Source: a virus. Taken from it: a DNA stretch of 55,457 bases. The translations under genes were made by a program, and so were the position numbers. The notes beneath the pieces were generated by a model. The model saw only the letters and a list, made by a program, of their open reading frames with translations. It was not told the origin of the DNA and did not search any database. The stretch covers positions 1 through 55,457 of the IMG/VR virus record IMGVR_UViG_3300020472_000032; one strand, given 5' to 3'. Shown here piece by piece: positions 4,109-12,044 of this stretch. The first letter of the stretch is position 1. Each line of letters begins with the position of its first letter.

Positions 4109-4486
4109 ATGACAGTTATCTCATCACGCTATAAAATGTTACTTGAAAAATTTCCATTCCTTACCATGGTCCGCTATGGTAACGATGAATTCATCGGTAT
4201 TGTAGGTAATGCAGACGGTACTGTCTTTAACATGTATTGTTGGGACCTTTTAAAGAGTGACAAAGAAAAGTTAAACTTTTTAAAACTTGGAGAAGAATGG
4301 TGGTTTGAAACAAATCACACTATACCTATTAATATTTTATTATTAAGCAAATGGAATTTTCAAAGTGTATTAAGAAGTTTAAACAATAAAAATGTTGAAG
4401 TAATGTATGGTCCTGTTACTAGTTTTGGAAGTTTAGTAAAAAAGCGAAGTAAACGCAGAAATATCCAACTTCTTAAAAAATACTAG
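4109..4486 (+). CDS. Conserved hypothetical protein of marine T4-like phages (125 aa)
   Basis: Plus-strand gene inside a minus-strand region. The 125 residues contain VRYGNDEFIGIVGN, then a run on Lys/Leu, GEEWWFETNHTIPINI and a basic C-terminus (KKRSKRRN). I recall similar proteins in T4-like cyanophages; no function is known to me. The start ATG has no clear Shine-Dalgarno sequence and overlies the divergent late promoter of the neighbour. Its 3' end overlaps the convergent DnaE-like gene by 4 bp, with no terminator between them. Confidence 0.7.
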   Translation: MTVISSRYKMLLEKFPFLTMVRYGNDEFIGIVGNADGTVFNMYCWDLLKSDKEKLNFLKLGEEWWFETNHTIPINILLLSKWNFQSVLRSLNNKNVEVMYGPVTSFGSLVKKRSKRRNIQLLKKY

Positions 4487-5043
4487 CCTTCACAAAGCAA
4501 ATTCATATGTACAACTACACTTAATGCATAAGCCATTGCATGAGCCTTCTTAAAGTAATAATTATCGTTTTCTGGTTTTATCCACACTTGGCTCATTATC
4601 GTTTGCCACGTCTGTGTTGCTAGATGTCTTTTTGCTGGCCGAATTATCGCTAGTACTGCCGCTAATTGTTCTACCGATGTGGGCTTCAATTGTTTCAATA
4701 GTTTGTCGTGTCCGCTTACGTGAAAGACTTGATCTACAAAGTCTTTGTGCTCCAGTAGTTCCCATAGTGGCTCCTTATCCATTAATTCAAATAAATGTTC
4801 TTCATTTTTAACGTTTTTATAAATGCTAACATTCAAACAATCTATTTTAAAATAGCCCATATCCTCTGCTGTTTTATAATCTATTGTGCTTAATCCTGTA
4901 ATTGGATCTTGTGGCATTTCATGAAAGTATACACCTGTGTTATGCTTTTTGCCAGGTTCTATACTTGCAGTAACATAAGGAAATTGATCTAATGCTTTTT
5001 GTCTATCAGCAAAGTCAATATCGATATCTGTATTAGCAATCAT
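4483..5043 (-). CDS. Miniature DNA polymerase III alpha (DnaE)-like protein
   Basis: The 186 residues carry, in the right order, short blocks resembling the catalytic core of bacterial DnaE: DIDIDFADR (residues 6-14, like PDIDxDF), MGYFKIDCLN (62-71, like the GLLKMDFLGL block with the third catalytic Asp, here D68), QVFHVSG (105-111, like VFQLES), LAAVLAIIRPAKR (127-139, like the ALYRPGP block) and KKAHAMAYAL (165-174, like NKSHAxAYA). The PHP, most of the thumb, tau-binding and OB domains are absent; a full DnaE has over 1,000 residues. The three acidic positions look retained, but the blocks are much closer together than in a working polymerase. Polymerase activity is therefore doubtful. 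It overlaps the next upstream minus-strand gene by 4 bp. Confidence 0.65.
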   Translation of the reverse strand: MIANTDIDIDFADRQKALDQFPYVTASIEPGKKHNTGVYFHEMPQDPITGLSTIDYKTAEDMGYFKIDCLNVSIYKNVKNEEHLFELMDKEPLWELLEHKDFVDQVFHVSGHDKLLKQLKPTSVEQLAAVLAIIRPAKRHLATQTWQTIMSQVWIKPENDNYYFKKAHAMAYALSVVVHMNLLCEG

Positions 5044-10407: not shown

Positions 10408-11250
10408 TTAGCTGACTACTCGCTTCATGCAAGTAACCTCAACATATCGTTTCCATGTCTTAGGTTGATGTTTCATCAAATCAGCAATCTTTGTTACCAT
10501 TCGCAAACTAACTTCTCTCAATTTTTCTTTGTTTGCGGCCATGTAATTCATTAATGCAGTTTCCTGCGACTTTTCAAATTTGTAATCCGAAAGCATACCG
10601 TCTTTAACCAACTGCTTACACCTTAGGAACTTGTCCCTCATAGTATCAAGTGTAAGATCTAAATAGTGACATCTAGACATAATAGCATCTAGGTGATCTT
10701 TAAGTTTACCTCTTGTACCTTCGAACTTTAAGTTTGTAATAAAGATAACCGAACCTTTAAATTCAAATCTATCAGGAATACCTTCACGTCTTAAAAGTGA
10801 ACTATCTGTATTCCAACTTAGGAACCTATGTTTACTACTATCTAGAGCCGCCTTAAGCAAGTTCAAACTAGTTTCATCATGTAATACTGTATCACAGTCG
10901 TCCATAACCAACACAGACCCTTTGTCTGAATTTTCATAAAGAACTTTGTACAAACCAATGGCACTAGAAGCACCTTTAATAACTTGGAAACGATCTCGTT
11001 TACCAGCCATTTTATCGAACATTCTGTTTTCGTTAAGCACTTGCTCAACACCAAATGATTTACCAACACCTGGAGGTCCAGTAACAACCATACCTCTAAC
11101 AACACCATCAACTGATGCTTGTGTCATATCATTTAAGATATCAAATCGTTCACGTAAACGTTTGATAATTTGAACATCTGTTTCTACAGGCTTTTCGGCC
11201 TTCTTAACACTTACTTTTGTATTTTTGGAAATTTTTAATTTAGTAGCCAT
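10408..11250 (-). CDS. AAA+ ATPase (280 aa)
   Basis: P-loop ATPase. Walker A is TGPPGVGKS (about residue 57) and the Walker B-type strand is VLVMDDCDTVL (about residue 112). A sensor-1-like VIFITN and an arginine-containing SRCHYLDL follow. It is not T4 gp44, whose sequence blocks differ and which lacks this C-terminal helical lid. Similar single-domain AAA+ proteins are found in many T4-like marine phages without a known role; a DNA-remodelling or loader role is inference. I use the ATG at 11248-11250 because GGAG lies 8 nt upstream; a GTG 9 nt earlier is possible. A sigma70-type promoter precedes it and hairpins follow it, so it may be a single-gene transcript. Confidence 0.8.
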   Translation of the reverse strand: MATKLKISKNTKVSVKKAEKPVETDVQIIKRLRERFDILNDMTQASVDGVVRGMVVTGPPGVGKSFGVEQVLNENRMFDKMAGKRDRFQVIKGASSAIGLYKVLYENSDKGSVLVMDDCDTVLHDETSLNLLKAALDSSKHRFLSWNTDSSLLRREGIPDRFEFKGSVIFITNLKFEGTRGKLKDHLDAIMSRCHYLDLTLDTMRDKFLRCKQLVKDGMLSDYKFEKSQETALMNYMAANKEKLREVSLRMVTKIADLMKHQPKTWKRYVEVTCMKRVVS

Positions 11251-11290
11251 GTGTCTCACTCCTTGACTTGTTTTTATTACCTACACTATT

Positions 11291-11319
11291 ATAATACGAC
11301 AGGGTGCATAAAAGGTCAA
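11291..11319 (-). promoter_or_regulatory. Sigma70-type early promoter for the AAA+ ATPase
   Basis: Minus strand: TTGACC at 11314-11319, a 17-bp spacer, and TATTAT at 11291-11296. The -35 box overlaps the stop codon of the upstream gene. A leader of about 35 nt contains AAGGAG. Confidence 0.7.
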
Positions 11320-12044
11320 CCTTTTATTTCCTCTATTTTCATATAATTTAACATTGTTTCTTTACAATTAGTGTATTTGCTAATTTCATGTCCTTTAATT
11401 CTAGCATTAATGCTTATTACTTTACCATCCATAACTTTTGTTAGATCTGGATCTTTATTCCAGAAAAACTTAACAATATGTTTATCATCATAAACTGTGG
11501 TTACAATAAAGTTACCAAAGTTTCGTAGATATTTGATATCGATTACCTTTAAATCCATTGATATTCTACCACTTACTTTACCTACATACTCACTAGTACG
11601 TTTATATTTTGACATCATATCTGAAAATTCTTCACGTTTTTGATCAACACCAAAACTTTTAGGTAAACTGGCGGCAACACTAACACCAAATTTATCTACT
11701 GTAGAATTCATTATAAATCCTGCAACTCTATCTTCAAATCCATTTAGTTGATCACTAAGTTTTTTGAAAGTCAAACTCTGTTGAAAATGTTCAGTGATTT
11801 CTTTTGCACGATCACTAATAGTTGGATCAGTTTCAACTAATTTTAAACAAGCCGAAGCATGTTTATCTTTTGCTTGATTATTGTCTAACATAAAACCAAT
11901 AACAGTTTTGTTATCGTGGTGTCTAGTTTCTTTTTCTTGATCATACCAACCATTACCACTGCTAATAAAACCTTGATAATCAGTAACTGCAACGGCATAT
12001 TGCATTACAGTAGTAATATCGTATTGTGCTTTAGGCTTAGCCAT
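11316..12044 (-). CDS. Putative nucleic-acid-binding protein with OB-like C-terminus (242 aa)
   Basis: I do not recognise a named family. The first 160 residues are helical and charged. The last 80 read as an alternation of strands (VIDIKYLRNFGNFIVTTVYD, HIVKFFWNK, GKVISINARIKGHE) that fits a small OB-fold domain as seen in phage and primase-associated proteins. This is inference from pattern only. It overlaps the 57-residue gene upstream and sits in an early, replication-type neighbourhood. Confidence 0.55.
   Translation of the reverse strand: MAKPKAQYDITTVMQYAVAVTDYQGFISSGNGWYDQEKETRHHDNKTVIGFMLDNNQAKDKHASACLKLVETDPTISDRAKEITEHFQQSLTFKKLSDQLNGFEDRVAGFIMNSTVDKFGVSVAASLPKSFGVDQKREEFSDMMSKYKRTSEYVGKVSGRISMDLKVIDIKYLRNFGNFIVTTVYDDKHIVKFFWNKDPDLTKVMDGKVISINARIKGHEISKYTNCKETMLNYMKIEEIKG

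Follow-up and report, generated by a model that had tools for sequence, protein, structure and literature searches.

We describe here a small gene of an uncultivated marine phage whose 186-residue product is, judging from sequence comparison, probably one of the two subunits, the C-terminal one, of a minimal C-family (Pol III alpha-like) polymerase. Such a minimal Pol III alpha, specific to phages and encoded by two genes far apart, was described from sequence by Iyer et al. 2021 (PMC7824862), and the gene is a marine addition to this polymerase type, in print since that year. The window, by which we mean the whole 55,457-nucleotide stretch analysed (IMG/VR record IMGVR_UViG_3300020472_000032), encodes this protein, the C-half, on the complement of positions 4483-5043. 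The original prediction placed the ORF correctly and gave no strand; it lies on the minus strand, has an ATG start, and is joined by an ATGA overlap to a 258-residue ORF upstream of it. The features are as follows.

4483..5043, minus strand: C-half coding sequence, 186 residues; predicted Mg2+-binding palm strands and reduced fingers of a split minimal Pol III alpha
5011..5028, minus strand: DIDIDF motif, residues 6-11; D6 and D8 equivalent to E. coli DnaE D401 and D403 (hhalign); invariant, n=114
4930..4947, minus strand: KHNTGV, residues 33-38, equivalent to the DnaE KHAGGV block (hhalign); H34 and G37 invariant, n=114
4831..4851, minus strand: FKIDCLN, residues 65-71; K66 and D68 equivalent to E. 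coli K553 and D555 (hhalign); both invariant
4630..4725, minus strand: finger block, residues 107-138, FHVSGH..LLKQLKPTS..LAAVLAIIRPAK (also written FHVSGH..LKPTSVEQLAAVLAIIRPAK); PF17657 match and hhalign
4528..4554, minus strand: FKKAHAMAY, residues 164-172, equivalent to DnaE FNKSHSAAY, with H168 corresponding to H760 (hhalign and conservation)
4109..4486, plus strand: convergent 125-residue ORF, phrog_11637; a putative member of the system only, listed for its conserved tail-to-tail position

Homology and predicted fold of the C-half

The window protein matches phrog_11778, a 'DNA polymerase' family, end to end (E=1.6e-66), and phrog_405, the full-length phage DnaE family, at E=1.6e-7. The Pfam model DNA_pol3_finger (PF17657) matches it at E=0.0018, which is below the model cut-off, and matches 26 of 66 C-half relatives at E<=0.01. 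A profile built from 66 relatives and aligned to E. coli DnaE by profile-profile comparison (hhalign) gives three colinear pieces, with residues 2-20 aligned to 397-417, residues 32-137 to 509-641 (P=2.7e-5), and residues 161-176 to 753-768, such that D6, D8, K66, D68 and H168 correspond to D401, D403, K553, D555 and H760. The five DnaE signature blocks that had been read from the sequence alone are present in DnaE order, and the three acidic catalytic positions said to be kept are the equivalents of D401, D403 and D555, invariant in 114 sequences. On the sequence evidence the likeness to DnaE is well beyond chance.

The protein is also as small as had been claimed, at 186 of 1160 residues (16% of E. 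coli DnaE, less than one fifth), and a Pfam search of it gives no PHP, OB or tau-binding domain, in agreement with the parts described as missing. The profile alignment shows that the thumb region is deleted as well, with short links standing for about 90 thumb residues and about 110 finger residues of DnaE.

The original prediction had proposed a profile match to DnaE, a structure prediction and dN/dS in relatives as checks, and the latter two gave the following results. The AlphaFold model of the C-half has a pLDDT of 85.7 and a pTM of 0.77, and a Foldseek search of it against 350,542 PDB chains returns Pol III alpha or PolC as all of the top 16 matches, with probabilities of up to 0.99 and the first unrelated match at 0.04. 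The figures themselves are modest (best E 0.017, TM 0.33-0.42), and the match of the predicted fold to Pol III alpha/PolC is specific, but by itself not strong. Across 114 aligned sequences with identities down to about 30%, 21 of the 186 positions are invariant, including D6, D8, D10, H34, G37, K66, D68, R135, P136, F164, K165 and H168, which are the signature residues of DnaE. The C-type ORFs are of uniform length (185-232 residues, stop to stop), and strong purifying selection acts on the C-half, with a dN/dS of 0.05-0.15 for most of the close pairs that are not saturated.

The missing half of the palm

In C-family polymerases the Gly-Ser motif sits in the palm, just upstream of the PDIDIDF strand. 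The C-half begins MIANTDIDIDF, exactly at that strand, and the nucleotide-binding Gly-Ser motif (GRGS) was not found in the 186-residue ORF. The window protein therefore does not have the complete palm with a Gly-Ser motif in one chain that is a DnaE trait, and is instead a stand-alone protein of about 190 residues with a DnaE-type Asp triad and finger motifs.

A search with PF07733 locates the missing palm piece, the N-half, as a separate ORF in all four cultured relatives RaK2, Phosso, PA5oct and Atu_ph07. These ORFs are about 170-180 residues long and end in ..GVGRGSSVASY..LIG.H.V.S..Y.L...EFLK followed by a stop, just before the PDIDIDF point. The N-half profile aligns with residues 322-395 of E. 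coli DnaE (P=7e-9), so that its end is where the C-half begins, and it has PDB matches at 1.8e-7. PF07733 is matched by all 65 aligned N-half sequences (best 4.7e-13), and GxGRG[S/A/C][S/C] is kept in 92 of 92 true N-halves, whose ORFs stop at about E-F-L/F-x. The AlphaFold model of the N-half has a pLDDT of 90.9, and its top 17 Foldseek matches among the same 350,542 PDB chains are all Pol III alpha or PolC; over both half models the best E-values are 0.011-0.017 and the TM scores a modest 0.33-0.44. The description of the window protein as a miniature catalytic core consequently holds for its DnaE catalytic homology, but not for self-sufficiency, since the Gly-Ser half of the palm lies in a second, distant gene of its relatives.

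The N-half was not found in the 55-kb window by either PF07733 or N-half profile searches, and reading by eye the small ORFs of the 11.9-13.9 kb stretch and of the left end revealed no Gly-Ser motif. However, the contig ends 4.5 kb downstream of the C-half, which makes this absence uninformative, and we infer that the window phage itself carries an N-half outside its contig. A marine N-half (L087) matches phrog_11127 at 1.3e-48, and the architecture of the two 'DNA polymerase' families phrog_11778 (C-half) and phrog_11127 (N-half) is the same as that of the window and marine halves.

Co-occurrence of the two halves

Both halves are present in at least 61 of the 63 cultured phage records that have a C-half; for 60 of these the match is to the RaK2 N-half, and for Alishewanella phage Slicko01 it is to the Phosso N-half. 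The remaining two, among the matches listed, are Slickus01, a sister phage, and PP728206, a record of 109 kb from a phage type whose genomes are about 350 kb. Of 23 large metagenomic contigs, 11 contain the two halves, which are separated by about 39 kb or more. The distance between the genes is mostly 30-120 kb, and in RaK2, CBB, GAP32, 121Q and PA5oct the N-half has the same orientation as the C-half and follows it 31-44 kb downstream. We sought N+C fusions, as Rosetta-stone evidence, among the 117 N-type and 135 C-type ORFs of the loci analysed and found none, the long N-type matches being an intact DnaE-like protein, a full-length DnaE that is split in phage Larrie, and one N-half preceded by a long open frame. 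Scans of IMG/VR give at least 587 places for the N-half query, a count that may include intact DnaE relatives (the best 80 are all N-half-type ORFs), and at least 593 for the C-half query. The co-occurrence of the halves partly reflects shared ancestry.

Gene neighborhood and the family-B polymerase

The window, RaK2 and PA5oct share a gene order of C-half, convergent ORF of about 120 residues, virion-type protein, gp61 primase and gp41 helicase, which Phosso and Atu_ph07 keep with small differences; the Alishewanella phages keep the convergent ORF and the helicase. The phrog_11637 ORF is also tail-to-tail with the C-half in RaK2, Phosso, PA5oct, Atu_ph07 and the Alishewanella phages.

The phage had been credited with its own T4-type polymerase. 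No family-B polymerase gene was found in the 55-kb window, although one is present in all eight cultured relatives tested and in 15 of 25 metagenomic contigs searched.

Other genes of the neighborhood include, in RaK2, an exonuclease annotated as a DNA polymerase exonuclease subunit (L033:730-1551), which precedes the C-half by a few kb, and epsilon-like genes are reported too in the Atu_ph07 and CBB papers. The replication cluster of the window contains a 242-residue ORF (11316-12044) with no PHROG or Pfam match, which lies upstream of an AAA+ protein gene (10408-11259, phrog_1250).

A proposed two-chain active site

We propose that the N- and C-half chains associate in trans, and that the Gly-Ser motif of the former and the Asp triad of the latter would together form one pol-beta-type nucleotidyltransferase site. 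The predicted activity of such a complex is to extend DNA beside the phage family-B replicase, and its most likely role would be short, low-processivity synthesis, as in gap filling, repair or primer extension. The low-processivity role is proposed because the thumb and the known clamp contacts are missing, and the complex alone is unlikely to be processive. The earlier suggestion of a minimal nucleotidyltransferase is accordingly a probable one for the predicted two-protein assembly only.

If the halves do form an active enzyme, it would have a very small C-family active site, of about 360 residues in two chains as compared with about 1160 in E. coli, with a catalytic pocket assembled in trans and a second DNA-synthesis system beside the T4-type replicase. 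The cultured phages RaK2, PA5oct, 121Q and Atu_ph07 carry the split type, which makes it readily testable; our literature search found no experimental test of a split minimal Pol III alpha.

Comparison with known systems

The closest known system is that of Iyer et al. (PMC7824862), who report the split enzyme in group 2.2 jumbo phages and propose that split forms are ancestral. In that system the C-terminal Mg2+- and template-binding unit is encoded apart from the N-terminal NTP-binding unit, and the phages, jumbo phages of T4-like type that also have a family-B polymerase, are of the RaK2/Atu_ph07 type, like the cultured relatives compared here. In sequence the window protein has the traits of the C-terminal unit. 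Unlike those phages, the window comes from an uncultivated marine lineage with about 53% identity to its nearest cultured relative, and its N-half would lie outside the contig.

The C-half resembles bacterial DnaE (E. coli, Taq and M. tuberculosis DnaE1) in having the Asp triad, K553, KHAGGV, the finger RP and FNKSH in the same order, but differs in being 16% of the length and lacking the PHP domain, the Gly-Ser palm half, the thumb, the C-terminal finger part, and the beta-binding, OB and tau-binding regions. Before Iyer et al., phage CBB was reported to encode a truncated Pol III alpha-like protein, CBB_328, of 172 residues (PMC5259590). It shares its phage group and size class with the window protein and could be either half; the split partner was not recognised there.

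Alternative explanations

There are several other readings to consider. It is improbable that the halves assemble into a non-catalytic complex, acting either as an accessory or structural part of the replisome or as a regulator of the family-B polymerase. This would accord with the lack of a thumb, OB domain or known clamp-binding motif, with the family-B polymerase already in these phages, and with the position of the genes in the replication cluster. However, there is no variation in any of the catalytic carboxylates, in K66 or in the Gly-Ser motif of the N-half, and a scaffold would not need them.

A marine sub-clade presents a different arrangement, in which an intact, compact, PHP-less DnaE-like protein of about 547-580 residues (e.g. 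L041:1426-3117, 563 residues; also L259-L325) is encoded directly after gp41, with matches to PF07733 at 7.7e-42 and to PF17657 at 1.3e-13. Like the C-half, the L041 protein has a C-family palm and fingers, and it is found in the same phage type and a few kb from the C-half; unlike it, the protein is a separate gene product with both palm halves in a single chain and a longer thumb region. The C-half is carried by 14 of 16 longer marine contigs with the intact form, and the C-halves of this clade (e.g. L013 and L030) retain the catalytic residues. No N-half was seen in these contigs, which are 108 kb or less, such that an N-half may lie outside them; nor was the intact protein seen in contigs holding an N-half, and the record of one uncultured phage, 484 kb long, contains the intact form and neither half. 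Since most of the intact-DnaE contigs carry a C-half with no visible N-half, pairing of the two halves may not be obligate in this sub-clade.

It is unlikely, though conceivable, that the C-half of this sub-clade does without an N-half and serves as an asymmetric second subunit that works with the intact compact DnaE or in parallel to it, which, if true, would make a Pol III-type polymerase of one and a half cores beside the family-B replicase. Also unlikely is the broader proposal that the C-half acts without the N-half, either alone or with the intact protein, in at least some marine phages. The 14 of 16 contigs and the retained catalytic residues would both fit with it, but contigs of 108 kb or less are short relative to the usual N-half distance of 30-120 kb, and cultured phages with a C-half almost always have an N-half.

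The original prediction also raised the possibilities of a decoy and a relic. That the C-half is a decoy titrating host clamp, tau or DNA is very improbable; it does resemble part of the host replicase, but we reject this candidate since the beta- (clamp-) and tau-binding regions of DnaE are missing from it, and the active site is invariant across phages of many different hosts, which a decoy would not need. The least credible reading, a relic of a horizontally acquired DnaE, draws on the short length and on the description of the phage CBB protein as truncated, and is rejected on dN/dS, the C-half being neither a relic nor a chance similarity because its catalytic residues are fully (100%) invariant and most close pairs have a dN/dS of about 0.05-0.15, with invariant motifs and uniform length besides.

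Other split forms of DnaE

The two-gene polymerase that we favor for the window phage, if it does form an active enzyme, would bear on the origin of split forms, which may be ancestral, in line with the proposal of Iyer et al., or may have arisen later by a break at a conserved catalytic motif. We note two further arrangements in other phages. In Tenacibaculum phage Larrie (L055:1146-4522) two neighbouring ORFs together encode a full-length DnaE that is divided at the same point (..ERFLN / LPDIDSDF..), and the pieces have extra tails on both sides of the split that resemble split-intein pieces. In Thomasclavelia phage TR-TP2 (L258:3044-7669) the break in DnaE immediately follows the third catalytic motif (KLDILG), and the two parts are separated by an HNH endonuclease gene, an arrangement that suggests fracture of DnaE by homing elements at catalytic motifs.
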